A DNA stretch of 44,832 bases, from contig NZ_JAUFPZ010000003.1 of the NCBI RefSeq assembly GCF_030409505.1, positions 1 to 44,832 of the forward strand, written 5' to 3'. The notes below the pieces were generated by a model, which saw nothing but the letters and a program-made list of their open reading frames with translations, was not told the origin of the DNA and made no database searches. The stretch's first letter is position 1; each line of letters begins with the position of its first letter. The translations under genes and the position numbers were made by a program. This document shows, in pieces, positions 33,236-42,352 of this stretch. This stretch comes from Zunongwangia endophytica (lineage in GTDB: Bacteria > Bacteroidota > Bacteroidia > Flavobacteriales > Flavobacteriaceae).

Positions 33236-35364
33236 TTATTTCTTTTTAGGTTTCTCACTCGTAATCTTGAAATCGTCTTTTTCAGTATCCATTATCATAT
33301 AAAACTCATCAATCGAATCACTACTGGAAGCGCTATACGTCACATTCCAAAAAGAAGCACCTTTATGTCTGGCTTTGATTTTTACATTAGTAAGAATTCC
33401 TGAATCATCACGCTTCAATTTTTTAATATTAATTTCAATATCATAGGTCTCTTGGATAGCTTTGATGATATTCTGAATGGCGGCATCTGTTTCATTAGGA
33501 TGAATAGTATATACGAAAGTTGTTGATTTTTGAGGTAATTTACCTTTAAAGGTTTTAGTGTAAACTTCAATAACACCATTAACTGCACGATCATTTTTAT
33601 ACTTTTCTGAGGCTTTTTTATCTTTCAAAACATTAATAAAAATGATATCATTTGGCTTGATGTTTTCAAGAGTTTTTTGCTCTTCAACTTTTCCGTTAAT
33701 AACCAATAATGGTTTTCCATCAATTAAGTGATTATTTCTTAAGATTATAATATGGCTAGAATCTGCTTGTTTTTGATTTTTTATAATCAGTGAATTATCC
33801 TGAACTTTTGTGGTATAGAGTTTAACACCGTATTTAGAAACTCGGCTTCCGTAAAGAGCCCTAGCTTTCTTACCTTCAAGATAAGTGATGTTTTCTATGT
33901 CATTTTTCTCAATATCATTAAGAAAAGCATTGCTCTTCTGTGGAACTCCATTCAGAATATAAAGAGTATCATTTAAAATATTAGAAGAAGTAGTCGCTAC
34001 TTTACCTTTGCCATTAATCGTACTACGCTCTTTATCTTTCGAACTTTCTTCAACCGTCTTCTCAGTACTTTTTTCTTTATTTAGAGTAATAATAGAAGGT
34101 GTTTTCTTATCTAAGAATTTCAAAAACTTAAGTTGGATTGCTTCCTGTTTTTTATCTATATCTTTTAAATAGGTTTGAAAATCTTCAATAAATTCGGTTT
34201 TAGAAAGTTTAACTACGCCATCTTTTCCTTTTTCACCAAATTGTTTTACTGCAGTTTCGGGTGCTATCACTTGGATAGATTTATAAACTATAGTTTTACC
34301 TTCAAGTTCATCTCTTTTATAATTTTGGTTGTCCAAAATATATAAGGCATTTTCACCTAAATCCTCAAGTGAAATTGATCGTTTTGGTGATTTGTAAGTG
34401 TTATTTTTTTCAGTTTCAGTATAACTTCCAATTCCCGTGATTTCAGGATTATCTACGGTATCAGTATACTGAGATCTATTTCCCTTTGAAGAGTTGAGCA
34501 CTACACTTTCTTTCTTTAAATTGAAACTATAAAGGAATAGGCATAAAAATGGAATTACTAAAATAGTCTTCCACGAGGTGTTTTTCTTTTTCGATTTGTT
34601 AAGCATAATAATACGTTTTTTGATGAATGATTGATAAAACTGATTAGTCATGGCCGGCTGCATACCAACACTTGCCATAACTAGCGCTTTTTGGTATTCT
34701 TTTTTGCTGGCTATTGTAGCTACTGCATCTTGATCGGCTAGAAATTCTAAGTTTTGGACGATAACTTTTTTGTATAACCAGATAAACGGATTAAACCAAA
34801 ATACCACACAGAGTATAGAAATGAAGATCACATCCAAAGAATGCCACTGTCTTGCATGGATTTGCTCATGCTTCAGGATTAATTTTAGGTCTTTTTGTTG
34901 ATGTTTTTTAGGATTGTAAACGATATTATTAAAGAATGAAAAGGGTTTAATATCCTTAGTCGTTCTCACCAATTTTAAATTCTTGTATTTTTTAAGAATC
35001 CAGAATTAATAACCTTCTTTAGGCTGTAGATCTGAAAAGCAAATCGTAAGCTCATTACTGAAACACCAAATAAGTAAACATAAAAACCAATTTGCCACCA
35101 ATCTGTTGGTTCTTCGATTACCGTGTTTTCCTGCTGAAAATCGCCATTCATAACAGTATATGGTATCTCGGTGGACGGCAATTCTATGTATTCTTGCTGA
35201 GTGAGATAAATAAGTGGTAAAACTAAAGAAGTCGCCAAACCTACTAAAAGAAACTTACGGTTTTGCATAAAACTTGTTTCCTGTTTCAGCAAAATAAAGT
35301 AAGCCAAATAGAAAATAGCAATTAAAGCTGAAGATTTTAAAAGATGGAAAATTAATTCTTGCAT
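33236..35364 (-). CDS. M56 (BlaR1-like) membrane metalloprotease with TonB-plug-like repeats, one frameshift
   Basis: This is a sensor protease of about 709 residues. The N-terminal part has hydrophobic helices (IFHLLKSSALIAIFYLAYFI, FLLVGLATSLVLPLIYL). A base is missing from the A-run at about 34990. The catalytic cytoplasmic domain has PFSFFNNIVYN and KHEQIHARQWHSLD, a HEXXH zinc site (34870-34856), then LEFLADQDAVA. After the last helix (TILVIPFLCLFLYSF) the protein is extracellular: three repeats (about 34351-34193, 33967-33803 and 33721-33554) resemble the plug of SusC proteins, with LYILNGVP, ITYLEGKKARALYGSR and LLVINGKVE, INVLKDKKASEKY, NGVIEVYTK. A final domain follows. It is the last gene of the blaI operon. 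By analogy with BlaR1 it would cleave BlaI on sensing a signal. Confidence 0.85.
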
Positions 35365-35381
35365 GCTTACTGGTTTATATT

Positions 35382-35840
35382 TTATTTATCTTCTGTCTTG
35401 TAAATACCGGCGTTAAGATCTTTTGATAATTCAAATCGAAAATTGCTGCTGGTTCTTAAAATAATTTTCTGATTCTTAAAGCTTAAAAGGTTAGGGCGTT
35501 TGTCTTTATAAGCCTGATTTTCTAAAGTAGCACCAATTTTAAAATTAGTCTCATCGGGAAATTTTCTACTAATAGTATAGCTATCTAATTGACCATTAAG
35601 ATAAGAGATTTCTGAGATCTTTATAATAACCGAGTCTCTATAAAATTGGTTAAATAATTTTACCCGGTTTTGCAGCTCTTTTTTACTAATATCATTTTCA
35701 AAATAGAAAGAATATTGGGACGATTGTTCCATAGTTTCGATTTCATCGACATTGCAACTGTAAAACATTATGCTAAGAAGAGGAAGCAGAAAACTTAGTT
35801 TTAGAGATCGTAATCTAGCGAATGTATGTTGATTAATCAT
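35382..35840 (-). CDS. Lipoprotein of unknown function in the blaI operon
   Basis: This is an intact 152-residue ORF. The signal peptide (LRSLKLSFLLPLLSIMFYSC) ends in a lipobox, about residue 29. The mature part is a mixed alpha/beta sequence: YSFYFENDISKKELQNRVKL, FNQFYRDSVIIKISEISYLN, and a last part rich in beta-forming residues (LSFKNQKIILRTSSNFRFEL). I do not recognise a family. Its ATG overlaps the stop of the gene before it (ATGA, 35837-35840) and the M56 gene begins 17 bp after its stop, so translation is coupled within the operon. A periplasmic partner of the M56 sensor is a reasonable guess, no more. Confidence 0.7.
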   Translation of the reverse strand: MINQHTFARLRSLKLSFLLPLLSIMFYSCNVDEIETMEQSSQYSFYFENDISKKELQNRVKLFNQFYRDSVIIKISEISYLNGQLDSYTISRKFPDETNFKIGATLENQAYKDKRPNLLSFKNQKIILRTSSNFRFELSKDLNAGIYKTEDK

Positions 35841-36196
35841 GATAGTTCGGTTTCTTGATTGATGAGTAATAAAACTGGAAATTCTAACGTCTTAAATGGC
35901 TTAGAAAATAATTGATATTGGTGATTTTTGATTTTCTTTTCTGCAACTTTAATTTTTGATTTCAGGATGAAGAAATGCTTGATCTTTTTTATTTCTGAAA
36001 TGATTTCTGCAGAAGCAATAAGCCACTTCAACTGAAATAGCTTAACACAGCATCGTATTAGAAACCCAAAACTTATAATAGATATTGATAAAAGAAATTC
36101 AGTATAATTTATAGAATTTTTGAGAAGCAGTTCATATCTGGCAAAAAATAACGCCAGGATTAGAAAATGTTTCAATATGTAAATCCAAAATTGCAC
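35837..36196 (-). CDS. Small membrane protein of unknown function in the blaI operon
   Basis: This is an intact 119-residue ORF starting with GTG at 36196, four bases after the blaI stop. It has two hydrophobic segments (FWIYILKHFLILALFFARYE and YTEFLLSISIISFGFLIRCC) followed by a basic cytoplasmic tail (KLFQLKWLIASAEIISEIKK). The second helix and the 'KLFQLKWLI' stretch loosely resemble the early part of M56 proteins (compare QIYSLKKVI in the M56 protein downstream), so it may be a shortened M56 relative without the zinc site. That similarity is by eye and weak. Tight spacing on both sides supports a real gene in the operon. Confidence 0.55.
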   Translation of the reverse strand: MQFWIYILKHFLILALFFARYELLLKNSINYTEFLLSISIISFGFLIRCCVKLFQLKWLIASAEIISEIKKIKHFFILKSKIKVAEKKIKNHQYQLFSKPFKTLEFPVLLLINQETELS

Positions 36197-36199
36197 GTT

Positions 36200-36564
36200 T
36201 TATTGCTTCTCTTTATTTTCAATAATTTCTAGAATTTCTCTCAATTCTTCAGCACTAATTTTTTCTTCTTTAGCAAAAAAGGAAACCATGCTTTTATAAC
36301 TATTGTCAAAAAAACGTTTAGTAGCGATATTCATAAACTGTTTCCTATACGCTTCTTTGGTAATAATTGGATAATATTGATGCGTTTTACCGTAGGCTTT
36401 ATAAGAAACATATTTTTTTTCTTCAAGATTCTTACGATGGTAGAAACCGTATTATAATGAAGTTTTTGTTCTTTAATATGCGGGATAATTTCTTTAACGA
36501 AAGCTTCCTCGAGCTTCCATATAATCCGCATAATTTCTTCTTCTTTATTCGTTAACTTTTCCAT
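36200..36564 (-). CDS. blaI: BlaI/MecI-family transcriptional repressor, one frameshift
   Basis: This is a winged-helix repressor of about 121 residues. It starts MEKLTNKEEEIMRIIWKLEE, followed by the recognition region KLHYNTVSTIVRILKKK. One base is missing near 36415; the next frame continues KYVSYKAYGKTHQYYPIITK, then the dimerisation part (YKSMVSFFAKEEKISAEELR) to the stop at 36200. Length and order match BlaI/MecI. Such repressors bind palindromes as dimers and are cut by an M56 protease, here encoded three genes on. A 14-bp palindrome over its own promoter (36613-36626) suggests self-repression. The symbol is given for the family; no beta-lactamase is present in the window. Confidence 0.85.
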
Positions 36565-36594: not shown

Positions 36595-36626
36595 TAAATA
36601 TAACGAAAAAAATAGTTTTCAAACTA
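36595..36626 (-). promoter_or_regulatory. Promoter and palindromic operator of the blaI operon
   Basis: The 14-bp palindrome TAGTTTTCAAACTA (36613-36626) is followed on the minus strand by exactly 10 bases and then TATATTTA (36602 to 36595), a near match to TAnnTTTG. The palindrome contains a TTTG at -33 spacing (17 bp). The ATG is 30 bp beyond the -7 box. The same arrangement occurs at 37642-37673. Confidence 0.6.
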
Positions 36627-36643
36627 AAAAAGTAGTAATTATT

Positions 36644-37637
36644 TTAAAGCGCGTAATTTAGTGGTAAGGATAAGGACATTCTCGCCTGTCCCATTGCGCC
36701 AGAAATATTGAAAGCTCGAGTAGGAGTGAAGTTTCCAAATTTGTCAATATAAAACGGACTTTTATATATAAGACCAGATTGCTGGTTTTTATGCAGTATG
36801 CTAATCGTGTCTTTTGTCATTGCCACTTTTGTAAATTGATCTGCCTGCTGAATATCGAAATACTTATATGTGGTACTTCAAATCTCTCGTAGAAAATTCT
36901 AAAATCATCTTGAGCAAGGTTTCTCTTTGATAGGGAGCGCATAAACTGAAGCAAGGATCCTTCAAAAGCTTCCTCACGATTTTTTAAATGGCGTCTTCTT
37001 GGTTTCTCATTTTGTTCTTTATAAAAGCTGCTTCCTTCATAAAAGGTGTATTCAATCAAATAAAGACCAGAACTTCCTGTACTAAATTTGATAGTAAAAT
37101 CTATAAGCTCATATTCTATAAAATAGCCCAGATGATTATTTTTAATTATTAGCGGTTCTTTCGCATACGCAATGAGTTCGTTTTGTGAAGGGGTATATTA
37201 AGTTTAATCGCATCTTCATTCAATATTTTACATTTTAACGCAGCAGTTGTATGCCCCAAAAATTCTCTGCGGAAGTAATTAAGTTTTCTTTTGCGAGACC
37301 AGGGATCGGTTTCCAGGACTACCGTGCCCAGCTCATCCATACTTTCTTCAAGAAAAACAATTGGATAATTTTTATCCTTGAAAACTGAAATATTAGGTAC
37401 TGTCCTTGTTTTAAATCCGATGGATCTAAAAATTAATGGTGAAATGTTAGAAGATGAATTCTCGATTTTGAAGTAACCTTTCGTATTGCTAACAGTACCA
37501 AGACTGGTACCGTCAAAATAAATTGAAACCGACTGAACAGCTGTTGAATCTTTTGCATTTAGAACTCTTCCAGTATACACTTCCTGAGCCTGAATATGAA
37601 ATGAAAATAAAATAGCTAAGAGTAAAAGTCGTTTCAT
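36644..37637 (-). CDS. Carboxypeptidase-regulatory-like domain protein, secreted, frameshifted
   Basis: This is a secreted protein of about 331 residues. Signal peptide: MKRLLLLAILFSFHIQAQ. Residues about 19-95 form a carboxypeptidase-D regulatory-like beta domain (YTGRVLNAKDSTAVQSVSIY, GTSLGTVSNTKGYFKIEN). The remainder (GTVVLETDPWSRKRKLNYFR, REFLGHTTAALKCKILNEDA, FYERFEVPHISISIFSRQI, GLIYKSPFYIDKFGNFTPTR) matches no enzyme I know. Breaks lie at about 37155, 37065 and 36822. Proteins with this layout are common in Bacteroidota and are thought to act at the cell envelope. It has the same operator as blaI, 80 bp downstream, so the two are probably co-regulated. Confidence 0.7.
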
Positions 37638-37641
37638 AAAT

Positions 37642-37673
37642 TAAATATAACGGTTTTTTTAGTTTTTAAACTA
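37642..37673 (-). promoter_or_regulatory. Promoter and palindromic operator, twin of the blaI site
   Basis: TAGTTTTTAAACTA (37660-37673) differs from the blaI palindrome at one base. It is followed on the minus strand by exactly 10 bases and the identical TATATTTA (37649 to 37642). A partial second copy, TAGTTTTTAA, lies at 37680-37689. The -7 box ends only 4 bp before the ATG, which implies a nearly leaderless message. Confidence 0.6.
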
Positions 37674-37749
37674 TATGTGTAGTTTTTAATTCAGTATTTC
37701 ATTAATAGAATAGCTTTAAAGTTTAAGTTATATTAGCACAAAAAAGTGT

Positions 37750-38696
37750 ATGGATATTGTTTACATACTAATTGGTTTAGTGTTATTAGTGGTAGGTGGT
37801 GAGTTTTTAGTAAGATCATCTGTCGCTCTTTCTTTTAAGATGAATATCTCTCGTATGGTCATTGGGCTAACGGTAGTTTCTTTTGCGACATCAGCACCAG
37901 AATTATTAGTGAGCTTGCAGGCAGCGATGGAAGGATTTTCAGATATTTCTTTAGGGAATATTATCGGCTCTAATATTGCTAATATTGGTTTGGTTTTAGG
38001 GATCACAGCGCTTATTTCTCCCATTGCGGTAGATAGTGACTTCTATAAGTTTAATTGGCCGGTGATGATGATCTTTTCATTTGCATTATTTTTCTTCTTA
38101 CTTAATGGGGAAATATAGACCGGTTAGAAGGTGGAGCTTTAGTACTTGGACTACTAATTTATCTACTTTTCTTGATTATTCGTAGTAGAAAGGTAAAGGA
38201 AAATGTAGTAGAAGAGGTAGATGAAAGCCTAGAAGGCACTTCCTGGTTTAAGATTATTATCTGGTTAGTAATTGGCGGAGCGGCCTTGTATGGAGGATCA
38301 GAATTATTAGTAGATGGATCGGTTGCGTTGGCGAGAGACTTAGGCGTTAGTGAAAGAATTATTTCTGTAACAATGATCGCTATAGGTACCAGTATTCCCG
38401 AGCTTGCTGCATCGGTAATAGCAGCCTTAAAGAAAGAGAAAGCCCTATCTTTTGGTAATTTGATAGGTTCCAATATTTTTAATATAGCTTCAGTATTAGG
38501 TATAACTGCTTTAATTAAACCGATCGTGATGCAATCTCAGGAAGTTTTGAGCAATGATATTTATTGGATGATTGCCTTTTCTTTCATACTAGTTCCCATG
38601 GCTTTTATTCCGAAGAAATTTCTATTTGGAAGAGTTAAAGGCCTAGTTATTCTAACCGGATATTCGGTATTTCTTTATATCACTATTTTTAGGTAA
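37750..38696 (+). CDS. Na+/Ca2+ exchanger-family antiporter, one frameshift
   Basis: This is an inner-membrane cation antiporter of about 315 residues with about ten helices in two homologous halves. Both halves carry the alpha-repeat signature: FATSAPELLVS with GNIIGSNIANIG in the first, and GTSIPELAASVIAAL with GNLIGSNIFNIASVLG in the second. The acidic residues in these repeats bind the cation. A short acidic loop (ENVVEEVDESLEG) lies between the halves. One base is missing at about 38115 (after FFFLLNGEI). The family exchanges Ca2+ for Na+ or H+, keeping cytoplasmic calcium low. It stands alone, divergent from the carboxypeptidase-like gene. Confidence 0.9.
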
Positions 38697-38941: not shown

Positions 38942-39950
38942 TTATTCTGCATTTTTAACCGTCTTAATAATACGGCTTGCAATTTTATAAGGATCACCAT
39001 TAGAAGATGGCCTTCTATCTTCTAACCATCCTTTCCATCCGCGCTCTACAGTTGCGATTGGAATACGGATTGATGCTCCACGATCAGAAATTCCGTAGCT
39101 AAAGTCGTGGATAGAAGCAGTTTCGTGCTTACCAGTTAAACGCATGTGGTTATCTGCACCGTAAACGTCGATGTGTTCTTTTACAACTGGACGGAAAGCT
39201 TCACAAATTTTCTCGTAAGTTTCACGGTTTCCAGCATTTCTTAAAGTTGAGTTAGAGAAGTTGGCGTGCATACCACTACCATTCCAATCTAAATCGCCTA
39301 ATGGTTTTGGATGAAGATCAATTGCAATTCCGTATTGCTCACCTATTCTTTCTAACAAATATCTTGCAACCCAAATCTCGTCACCAAGCTGCAGCTCCTT
39401 TAGCGAAAATTTGATATTCCCACTGTCCGGCAGCAACCTCACCATTAATACCTTCTACGTTTAATCCAGCTTCAAGGCAAACATCTAAATGCTCCTCAAC
39501 GATAGATCTACCATAGGCATTGTTTGCACCTACAGAACAGTAATAAGGTCCTTGTGGTCGTGGATATCCATTAGCTGGGAAACCTAAAGGTTTACCTGTT
39601 TCAGTATCAATAAGGAAGTATTCTTGTTCAAATCCAAACCAGAAATCATCATCCTCATCGTCTATAGTAGCTCTTCCATTAGTTTCGTGAGGTGTACTAT
39701 CTGAATTAAGTACTTCGCACATTACTAAGAATCCATTTTTACGTTGTGGATCTGGACATATAAATACTGGCTTTAATAAACAGTCAGAAGCATTTCCTTC
39801 AGCTTGTCCTGTAGAAGAACCATCAAAAGACCATACCTCACAATCTTCTAACTTTCCTGAAAAATCAGTTACTACTTTTGTTTTACCACGTAACTTCTGA
39901 GTTGGCTTACTACCATCAAGCCATATATACTCCAACTTTGATTTGGTCAT
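38942..39950 (-). CDS. Glutamine synthetase, eukaryote-like type II, one frameshift
   Basis: This enzyme joins ammonia to glutamate using ATP. At about 336 residues it matches the short GSII type rather than bacterial GSI (about 470). Motifs are IWLDGSKPTQKLRGKTKV, WSFDGSSTGQAEGNASDC in the N-terminal beta-grasp part, FGFEQEYFLID with metal ligands, GPYYCSVGANNAYGR, and in the second half DWNGSGMHANFSNSTLRNAG, NHMRLTGKHETAS and SIRIPIATV. The two frames overlap at 39381-39445; one base is missing in the AAAAGDEIW stretch near 39395. It is divergent from the GSIII gene, and the 225-bp gap holds a strong palindrome. Confidence 0.93.
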
Positions 39951-40068
39951 AATCTAATTCGTTTTTTTATAAAATTGAACGTCTAAGGTTAACAAAAATA
40001 TAATTTTTTTGAATAAAATGTATATTTTTTTAGGGTGCATTTATTGAGAATTTTCAATTTGTAAATAA

Positions 40069-40091
40069 TACCCCCTAATTTTTAGGGGGTA
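40069..40091. promoter_or_regulatory. 10-bp perfect palindrome between the two glutamine synthetase genes
   Basis: TACCCCCTAA (40069-40078) and TTAGGGGGTA (40082-40091) are separated by three T. It is by far the most GC-rich element in this AT-rich gap. It lies 85 bp before the GSIII start and 119 bp before the GSII start, so a regulator could control both. A TTTTTTAGGG half-copy is at about 40025-40035. Confidence 0.5.
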
Positions 40092-40134
40092 AACATTATT
40101 TAATGTTTTTCAAGGTGTTGTAGTGAGAAATATT

Positions 40135-40142
40135 TAAATTTG
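40135..40142 (+). promoter_or_regulatory. Candidate -7 box of the GSIII gene
   Basis: TAAATTTG fits TAnnTTTG and lies 33 bp before the ATG. The nearest TTG (40118-40120) is 14 bp upstream, shorter than usual, so this is tentative. Confidence 0.3.
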
Positions 40143-40175
40143 ATCGTAATATTTTATTAATCATAATAGCTTAAC

Positions 40176-42352
40176 ATGTCAACACTTAGATTTAAGGCAA
40201 TAGAAGAAACCTTTAACCGAAAATCTGTAAATATCGAAGAGCCAGGAAGGCGCTCAGCGATTTTTGGAAGTAATGTCTTTAATGAGTCGGTTATGAAGCA
40301 GTATTTAACCAAAGAAGCATATAATAATGTGATGGATGCTGTGAAGACCGGAGCGAAAATTAACCGAACAGTAGCCGATCATATTTCTGCTGGAATGAAA
40401 GAATGGTCTATTAATAAGGGAGTTACTCATTATACGCACTGGTTTCAGCCTTTAACAGGAGCAACAGCTGAAAAGCATGATGCATTTTTTGAAACTATAG
40501 GTGATGGACTAGCGATAGAAAAATTTGGCGGAGGATCTTTGGTTCAGCAAAGCCAGATGCTTCCAGTTTTCCAAACGGTGGAATTAGAAATACCTTTGAA
40601 GCTCGAGGATATACCGCATGGGATCCTACTTCACCGGCATTTATTTGGGGAACAACTTTATGTATTCCAACAGTTTTTGTTTGTTATACGGGCGAGGCTT
40701 TAGACTATAAAACACCACTTCTTAGAGCTTTACAAGCAGTAGACCAGGCGGCAACAGATGTTCAAAATATTTCGATAAAAATGTTTCTAAGGTGAATGCT
40801 ACTTTAGGTTGGGAGCAGGAATATTTTCTTGTAGATTCAGCTTTAGCAGCGACTCGACCAGATATTCAATTAGCAGGTCGTACACTTTTAGGACATTCTC
40901 CAGCAAAAGGGCAGCAATTAGACGATCATTATTTTGGATCTATTCCATCACGTGTCTTAGCCTATATGAGAGATTTGGAGATCGAGTGTATGCGTTTAGG
41001 AATTCCGGTGAAAACCAGACATAACGAAGTTGCTCCAAATCAATTTGAGTTAGCACCAATTTTTGAGGAAGCTAACCTTGCGGTAGATCATAATTCATTA
41101 ATTATGGATGATGAATAAGATTGCCGAGCGTCACCATTTTGTGGTGTTAATGCACGAAAAACCATTTGCCGGAATAAACGGAAGTGGAAAACACAATAAC
41201 TGGTCTTTAGGAACTGATACGGGCATTAATCTTTTATCTCCCGGTAAACTCCTATGAAGAATCTTCAGTTTTTAACCTTCTTCATTAATACGATCAAAGC
41301 AGTTTGCGATAATGAAGAATTATTAAGAGCTTCTATTGCAAGTGCATCTAACGATCACCGTTTAGGAGCGAACGAAGCACCACCAGCAATTATTTCAGTA
41401 TTTATTGGTAGTCAGTTAACGGCTGTCTTGGATGAGTTGAAAAAGTAACTTCCGGGAAATTATCTCCGCAGGAAAAAACAGAATTGAAACTAAATGTTGT
41501 AGGAAAATTCCAGAAATTCTTTTAGATAACACCGATCGTAACCGTACTTCTTCTTTCGCATTTACAGGTAATAAATTTGAATTTAGAGCCGTAGGATCTA
41601 CTGCCAACTGTGCAAATCCTATGACAGTACTTAATGCGATAATGGCTAAGCAGTTAAAAGACTTTAAAGTTGAGGTTGATAAGCTGATTAAGGATAAAAA
41701 AATGAAGAAAGACGATGCTATCTTCAATGTTCTTAGAGAGTATATCAAGAAAAGTAAAAAGATTAGATTTGAAGGTGATGGTTACGGAGAAGCTGGGAAA
41801 AAGAGGCTGAAAAACGTGGCTTAAGCAATAATAAAAAACACTCCAGAAGCATTAAAAGCTCAAATTTCTAAAAAAGCGATTAAGCTTTATGAAGAATTAG
41901 GAGTGATGAATACTGTAGAAGTTGAAGCTCGCCACGAAATCGAATTGGAAGAATACGCAATGCGCATCCAGATCGAAGCAGAGTGCTAGGTGATATTGCA
42001 AGAAATCATGTAATCCCAACCGCAATTAGATACCAAAATGTTTTGATTAAAAACGTTACTGGTTTAAAAAGTATCTACGGCGAAGATTTTAAAAAGTACG
42101 CTGAAGAACAATTAGACTTGGTTGAAAAAGTTTCTAACCATATCGCAGTAATTAACAGTAAAGTGAGCGCTATGATCGAAGCTCGAAAAGTAGCGAACAA
42201 ATACGAAGATATTCAGAAAAAGCAGAATCTTATTGTCACGAATAAAACCGTTTTTTGATGAAATTCGCTACCATTGCGATAAATTAGAATTACTGGTTGA
42301 TAATGAAATCTGGCCACTTACTAAATATAGAGAGTTGTTATTTACTCGATAA
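40176..42352 (+). CDS. glnN: Glutamine synthetase type III, frameshifted
   Basis: This is the large GSIII form of about 725 residues, which catalyses the same ATP-dependent glutamine synthesis. It starts [20 protein letters not shown]. The GSIII-specific N-terminal domain has [20 protein letters not shown]. The catalytic part shows [72 protein letters not shown] and the GSIII-only C-terminal helices ([40 protein letters not shown]). About ten one-base errors break it, for example at 40550, 40605, 41113, 41250, 41450, 41500, 41800, 41985 and 42230. The true stop is 42352. The symbol is given for the family. Confidence 0.92.

Follow-up and report, generated by a model that had tools for sequence, protein, structure and literature searches.

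Two nearly identical palindromes in the stretch of Zunongwangia DNA analysed here (44,832 nucleotides, hereafter the window) are very probably the central half-sites of two operator arrays, at which a repressor of the BlaI/MecI/CopY family, encoded at 36200-36564 of the same window, would block transcription. This reading is built on sequence comparisons, namely on the arrays themselves, their conservation, their phase, their placement at promoters and their co-occurrence with the repressor gene blaI.

The window corresponds to contig C3 of a genome of 4.38 Mb. Comparison with the overlapping ends of the chromosome contig C2 gave 99.64% identity with 41 gap openings over the 14 kb compared, and the end overlap of C2 covers 13 kb at 99.99%. 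The window (1-44832) is thus a redundant, indel-rich duplicate of the C2 ends, so that its broken frames are best read as assembly or sequencing noise and frameshifts anywhere in it should be distrusted; the gene-level analysis was therefore based on the intact C2 copies. All genes concerned lie on the minus strand. The blaI gene (PF03965, 36200..36564) is broken in the window and intact on C2 (121 aa), as are the CarboxypepD_reg-like secreted-protein gene (36644..37637; 331 aa on C2) and a BlaR1-like M56 metallopeptidase gene (33236..35364; 709 aa on C2). The second and third genes of the blaI operon are small hypothetical genes, membrane-like (35837..36196) and lipoprotein-like (35382..35840) by eye, both with no match in Pfam or NCBIfam. 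Judged by BlaI, the nearest named relative is Zunongwangia pacifica (91%). A plasmid origin was rejected, as the 1.1-kb region had no match among 72,556 plasmid records.

The palindromes were found exactly where the original prediction had placed them, TAGTTTTCAAACTA at 36613-36626 and TAGTTTTTAAACTA at 37660-37673, and along the minus strand TATATTTA comes after a gap of exactly 10 bases in both cases (36602-36595 and 37649-37642, respectively). Each is the middle of a longer array, ACTA-N6-TAGT-N6-ACTA-N6-T(A/C)GT followed by a -7 box, in which the half-sites alternate in orientation at an exact 10-bp step; the 10 bp noted between palindrome and TATATTTA are N6 plus the fourth half-site. Array 1, before blaI (36603..36636, minus strand), shows 0 mismatches to ACTA-N6-TAGT-N6-ACTA-N6-TCGT and was aligned in 113 orthologue upstreams. 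Its half-sites (36636-36633, 36626-36623, 36616-36613 and 36606-36603) form two tandem dyads of the ACTA-N6-TAGT type, with palindrome 1 as the two inner half-sites at their junction. Array 2, before the CarboxypepD_reg-like gene (37650..37683, minus strand), reads ACTA-N6-TAGT-N6-ACTA-N6-CCGT with 1 mismatch, and palindrome 2 likewise comprises its inner half-sites. The last half-site is degenerate in both window arrays (TCGT at blaI, CCGT at the CarboxypepD_reg-like gene), which counts against the explanation that we favour.

That this arrangement is hard to explain by chance, as had been argued, was borne out by the composite of palindrome, N10 and octamer, which at up to 3 mismatches has 2 matches in the window against 0.03 expected, a number reached in 0 of 100 shuffles. 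Similarly, the 34-base array has 4 matches (two sites on both strands) against 0.10 expected, and 4 were reached in 0 of 100 shuffles. For the bare palindrome with at most 2 mismatches, the window shows no enrichment (13 against 9.6 expected). In its exact form the palindrome occurs at 4 unique places in the genome, namely the two of the original prediction, one between the 3' ends of convergent genes and one inside an ORF, and TATATTT at a distance of N8-12 is found only at the former two. The other two copies (the convergent genes being nth-like and wrbA-like by eye) were rejected as operators for want of a -7 box and an array.

The octamer TATATTTA serves as the putative -7 box of both promoters and at blaI abuts the last half-site; its consensus is TAnnTTTG, which the accessible part of PMC9723704 gives as the sigma-A -7 consensus of Flavobacterium psychrophilum. 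Among 96 aligned arrays, the last TAGT and the start of TAnnTTTG are 2 bases apart in 66 and directly adjacent in 13, and TAnnTTTG was not found in 16. Because the -7 box sits at a fixed place right after the array, the array spans the -33 to -7 region, an arrangement that would fit repression by occlusion. The proposed overlap of the palindrome with the -33 element applies to the blaI promoter of the window, where TTTG lies inside TAGTTTG, but not generally, as TTG is missing from that position in 4 of the 6 genus genomes. At the CarboxypepD_reg promoters of 4 of the 6 genus genomes, TATATTGC (3) or TATATTGT (1) occupies the -7 region, a sequence closer to SM5 (TAnnTTGY), an alternative promoter motif of F. 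psychrophilum, than to TAnnTTTG.

The fixed position relative to the -7 box also bears on the notion that the arrays are accidents of AT-rich intergenic DNA, or else terminators or other structures acting at the RNA level. The sequences are indeed AT-rich, the bare palindrome lacks enrichment, and one additional match in another genome is terminator-like; yet the 10-bp phase is fixed and both the shuffled and the reversed-pattern controls speak against such an origin, to which we attach practically no probability.

Within the genus, ACTA-N6-TAGT-N6-ACTA-N6-T(A/C)GT-TATATT precedes both blaI and the CarboxypepD_reg-like gene in all 6 genomes, with CCGT at the second promoter of the window. The expectation that the palindrome itself would be kept before blaI in close relatives held in part: its exact form is present in 2 of the 6 genomes only, the others having TAGTTTAATAACTA (3) or TAGTTTAACAACTA (1), while the pair TAGTT/AACTA and its spacing are retained. 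Beyond the genus, we assembled 114 orthologous blaI loci (6 from genus genomes, 28 from a family search and 80 named loci) and scored 300 bp upstream of each, one locus being dropped for its short upstream (n = 113). A four-half-site array with at least 14 of 16 bases was present in 105 of the 113 upstreams, 70 of them perfect, against 3 of 2260 shuffles; a six-half-site array with at least 21 of 24 bases was present in 82 of 113 and in 0 of 2260 shuffles. Zunongwangia, Christiangramia, Gillisia and Salegentibacter have about four half-sites, as their six-site scores fall below 20 of 24. Eight upstreams scored 13 or less. Five of them, from three genomes of which two were listed twice (Altibacter, Aureisphaera and G088), carry the array at a more distant upstream position, where a longer operon starts in which blaI comes later; one scores 13 (L144), and two (L149 and L174) are without explanation.

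The array also tracks the repressor gene at the genome level. Of 199 family genomes sampled, 88 contained its exact form (0 of 199 for the reversed control), and it was present in 86 of the 111 genomes with a blaI orthologue as opposed to 2 of the 88 without, the orthologue cut (E < 1e-37) having been chosen after a gap in the match list was seen. One of these 2 genomes (G056) carries a broken orthologue fragment of 60% identity. The absence of the exact array from 25 of the 111 orthologue genomes counts against our explanation. In an order-level sample, 26 of 50 genomes of the family contained the array against 2 of 246 genomes of other families (control 0). Among 23 genomes searched by name, 22 contained it, in 21 of the 22 with a match at the blaI operon by coordinates, and control matches totalled one. 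A blaI gene at least 50% identical lies within 1.5 kb in 71 of the 82 array loci among the matches listed, some of which are the same places; the remaining 11 include one at a contig end and a terminator-like one in G158, listed twice. The latter, between HU-like and RNase E/G-like genes (named by eye), was set aside because it resembles a terminator-type palindrome. Likewise set aside was a 24-mer of G004, ACTAGCAGCGTAGTCATTCAACTA, which fits the 24-base pattern in 8 identical copies and is probably a mobile element with an accidental fit.

One could suppose that an unlinked regulator binds the array and that blaI is merely one of its targets, since small regulons with a common motif can belong to any regulator and the binding of BlaI is itself inferred. 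We consider this very improbable, given the array's position at the blaI operon in the genomes searched by name, its co-occurrence with the orthologue, the likeness of the half-site to canonical BlaI dyads and to the half-sites of Clostridium thermocellum BlaI (GTCTAT, GACTAT; PMC8457756), and the fact that a sister clade of BlaI carries an array of different spacing at the promoter of its own gene.

Which pair of half-sites makes up the dyad was approached through the spacing in 102 unique upstreams of the clade to which the window BlaI belongs (clade 1; some of the 113 loci come from the same genome) and 40 of the sister clade (clade 2), with per-position counts confined to upstreams with at most 2 mismatches (96 and 38, respectively). 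The distance from ACTA to TAGT is 10 bp in 93 of the 102 clade-1 and 39 of the 40 clade-2 upstreams. By contrast, TAGT to ACTA measures 10 bp in 84 of the 102 clade-1 upstreams and 8 bp in none of them; for clade 2, 38 of the 40 upstreams have 8 bp and 1 has 10 bp, i.e. the inter-dyad gap is N6 in clade 1 (84/102) and N4 in clade 2 (38/40). Clade-1 arrays start with ACTA: one step further upstream, the TAGT slot is filled (at least 3 of 4 bases) in only 4 of 96 arrays, while the two slots inside the array start are filled in 69 and 70 of 96. Two other BlaI types of the genus have dyads of the N6 geometry too, namely TCTACATTTGTAGA in 6 of 6 genomes and, in 3 genomes, TACTACATTTGTAGTA or a sequence that differs from it at one base. 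As clade 2 alters the junction distance only, the arrays start with ACTA and the paralogues use N6 dyads, ACTA-N6-TAGT, which is the canonical BlaI/MecI geometry, is the most likely dyad unit, and the palindrome first noted most probably marks where two tandem dyads meet.

The original prediction had instead taken the palindrome TAGTTT-NN-AAACTA as the operator, which would make it the unit bound by one BlaI dimer, the outer half-sites then being accessory. A 10-bp repeat does make either pairing geometrically possible, and the junction bases beside the inner half-sites are near-invariant (T 98%, A 100% in 96 arrays), the inner spacers of the dyads being less conserved. Nevertheless, the sister clade changes precisely the TAGT-to-ACTA distance and retains ACTA-N6-TAGT, arrays begin at ACTA, the canonical BlaI-type dyads of the genus (as in TACTACATTTGTAGTA) are ACTA-N6-TAGT, and the exact palindrome is missing at blaI in 4 of the 6 genus genomes, all of which renders the palindrome an unlikely unit. 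The broader proposal, that the element is the operator of the repressor encoded by blaI, fared better, since the element goes with blaI across the family and is placed at the promoter of blaI or at the head of its operon; what lacks support is the palindrome as the operator unit.

Clade 2 is represented in the genome of the window by a paralogue (C2:2630781) with the same half-sites, and an M56 gene adjoins it in its own genome (L009, by eye); the M56 protein of that locus has an apparent TonB-C-like end, also by eye. In a tree of 84 proteins, 35 of them from clade 1, clades 1 and 2 were separate (support 100/95 and 85/92, with the bootstrap not settled). The pattern with clade-2 spacing occurs in 96 of 199 genomes (control 1) and stands at clade 2's own promoter. 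The recognition-helix stretch (YNTVSTIVR) is nearly identical in both clades. Asn38 is present in 103 of 103 clade-1 and 40 of 40 clade-2 proteins, with Thr in 9 of 9 proteins of the two types with canonical operators, and may thus go with the loss of the CA/TG core. The clades differ at residue 36 (His in 103/103 of clade 1, Ala in 40/40 of clade 2) and at residue 46 (Asn in 96/103, Ile in 40/40). Packing rather than base reading may separate the two clades; however, the spacing is not the sole possible discriminator, because the inner base differs as well, ACTAA...TTAGT being fixed (97-100%) in clade 2 only. Our tentative proposal, to which we assign slightly less than even chances, is that dyad centres 20 bp (clade 1) or 18 bp (clade 2) apart act as a spacing code that insulates paralogous repressors in the same cells. 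If this is true, specificity would come from dimer-dimer contacts along the helix, each repressor filling only the array of its own period, with a contribution of the inner base. The 20 versus 18 bp spacing would also offer a clean natural system for asking whether paralogues are insulated by their packing on DNA or by the bases that they read.

The repressor itself can be assigned to the BlaI/MecI/CopY family by its sequence. The intact C2 copy scores 111.1 bits against PF03965 (Penicillinase_R; cut-off 22.6) and the window fragment 49.6 bits, and a profile of 10 BlaI orthologues matches MecI (1okr) at positions 5-118 with E 1.7e-11 and BlaI (1sd4) with E 2.1e-6. The family trait of a dyad operator over the repressor's own promoter is apparent, at the sequence level, in the arrays of the 105 of 113 upstreams. 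The repressor scores below the NCBIfam cut-offs of the named beta-lactam repressors (49.6 bits against 180 for BlaI_of_BCL, 35.4 against 250 for MecI_of_mecA) and of CopY_TcrY (52.4 against 121.95). The TACANNTGTA core is not present in the operator, the inner bases of the dyads being AT-rich and variable; the ACTA-N6-TAGT geometry is shared with the operators of the beta-lactam type. Since the 121-aa sequence has no cysteine, it has no CXC metal motif. The M56 partner comprises an M56 domain (57 bits) and a stretch resembling a TonB-receptor Plug, with no transpeptidase or penicillin-sensor domain by Pfam and 31 bits against a cut-off of 400 for blaR1_generic (NCBIfam). As no penicillin sensor is detectable in it, a beta-lactam signal should not be assumed.

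These observations are consistent with a mechanism in which one repressor dimer would occupy each ACTA-N6-TAGT dyad. Two dimers in the window, or three in many relatives, would be positioned 20 bp apart and on one face of the DNA, the half-site step being about one helical turn, and their binding may be cooperative. Dimers lined up in this way would cover the -33 to -7 region and block transcription, so that the repressor would control its own operon, in which its M56 metallopeptidase partner is encoded, together with a small number of other genes whose products are secreted or surface proteins. If the M56 protein acts as BlaR1 does, it would sense the inducing signal, and repressor binding would be lost as a result.

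Several of these features recall known systems. MecI and BlaI of Staphylococcus and Bacillus licheniformis (PDB 1okr/1sax, 1sd4/1xsd) belong to the same protein family as the window BlaI, and they share with the predicted system, according to the available portion of PMC3305447, dimers that bind inverted repeats, more than one operator in each divergon (three are bound by B. licheniformis BlaI), a partner with an M56 domain, and autoregulation. By contrast, known MecI/BlaI operators have a TACA/TGTA core that is absent from the window arrays, the window M56 protein is devoid of a Pfam-detectable penicillin sensor, and the targets found are secreted or surface proteins rather than a linked beta-lactamase or PBP2a. 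CopR/CopY is likewise of the Penicillinase_R family and recognises the cop box RNYKACANNYGTMRNY, but its ACANNTGT core is absent in the window and the window BlaI has no cysteine; in pneumococcus, two operators (a cop box pair) lie upstream of the cop operon, with no cooperative binding reported, as far as the excerpt of PMC7253601 goes. Closest in layout is the C. thermocellum type (BlaI_0696 and BlaI_1845), for which operators of four protomers have been published (PMC8457756), with two pairs of inverted half-sites of the (A/G)ACTAT type upstream of the regulator operon, a layout that the window arrays have as well. C. thermocellum, however, belongs to the Firmicutes, and arrays of six half-sites, the 10-bp phase and the inter-dyad spacing of paralogues were not found in the accessible part of that source. 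Finally, clade-2 BlaI shares with clade 1 the near-identical recognition helix, the ACTA-N6-TAGT dyad and the M56 partner, and differs in the gap (N4 versus N6).

In the open-licence literature, judged by titles and the beginnings of abstracts, no paper on such an operator in Bacteroidota was found, and the portion of PMC12578637 available to us contains only unrelated uses of the search words. As far as this literature shows, three features are new: the operator of the Flavobacteriaceae BlaI/M56 systems, arrays that hold as many as six half-sites in strict 10-bp register, and an inter-dyad spacing specific to the clade. Together they provide a testable operator and regulon for a common and so far uncharacterised repressor/M56 pair of the Flavobacteriaceae, with CarboxypepD_reg, GLPGLI and TonB-receptor-like genes, serine hydrolases and a secreted protein with the motif HEHFHQ as predicted targets.

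The link between the blaI operon and a secreted-protein gene, also part of the original prediction, is upheld in the genus, where the array precedes the CarboxypepD_reg gene in 6 of 6 genomes (14 to 16 of 16 bases). The label 'carboxypeptidase-like' is not, since the domain is CarboxypepD_reg-like (PF13715), which does not in itself indicate carboxypeptidase activity. Outside the genus, two Leeuwenhoekiella genomes (L241 and L242) have a CarboxypepD_reg gene with an array on another contig than blaI, both located via the array itself. Of 28 homologues fetched from the 38 non-genus genomes with a CarboxypepD_reg homologue, L244 is the sole one with an array, and owing to its absence at the other 27 the gene was rejected as a family-wide target of BlaI.

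In 6 of 6 genus genomes, the 24-base form stands at the blaI operon, at the CarboxypepD_reg gene and at the promoter of a GLPGLI gene; further matches fall on several promoters of paralogues and on one repeat. For the GLPGLI target, the genes themselves were read in G000, G001, Z. pacifica (the G003 stretch by coordinates) and Flavobacterium akiainvivens, and the target was judged from the motif sequences only in G002, G004 and G005. In G000, a pair of GLPGLI genes precedes a large CarboxypepD_reg/receptor-like gene. F. akiainvivens has an imperfect array at blaI and an exact one 1.5 Mb away from it, about 30 bp before a GLPGLI gene (TIGR01200, 1.2e-52) that is again followed by a CarboxypepD_reg/receptor-like gene, so that this target recurs independently in a genus far removed from Zunongwangia. 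In F. suaedae, a six-half-site array precedes an outer-membrane gene with 34% identity over 203 residues to that of F. akiainvivens.

Elsewhere, blaI lies behind a serine hydrolase gene (L306 932-2353; PF00144, beta-lactamase/PBP fold, E 1.8e-55), and two further operons are headed by a hydrolase by sequence likeness only (L307 629-2074, L239 3838-5283). The gene for the HEHFHQ secreted protein belongs to the blaI operon in some genomes (L308) and has its own array where it is unlinked (G095, 55% identity). The protein has no Pfam match (L308) and no NCBIfam match (L305, L308), and the family is a candidate for an uncharacterised metallopeptidase; its members include L305 2030-3013, L308 968-1948, L309 932-1918 and L239 2838-3866 (as HENFHQ). 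A further array stands at a secreted esterase-like gene (PF00756) in G064. The common theme of the array targets is predicted secreted or surface proteins, and the regulon looks real but small, comprising the blaI-M56 operon, the CarboxypepD_reg gene, the GLPGLI operon and, elsewhere, secreted hydrolase-like genes. This points to BlaI-type systems being able to serve envelope proteins even where no beta-lactam sensor can be recognised.

The neighbours of blaI in the window are a sodium/calcium-exchanger-like gene and two glutamine synthetase-like genes (37750-38696 and 38942-42258; names by eye), and the same neighbours adjoin blaI in Altibacter, Aureisphaera and others (L239, L240, L306-L309), pointing to an old conserved locus. 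Finally, a further BlaI type, 46% identical and with the helix HYNSVATIVK, is encoded at L381 1564-1926, where it has an array-like promoter and an M56-like gene behind it, and adjoins a gene that by eye is glycoside-hydrolase-like.
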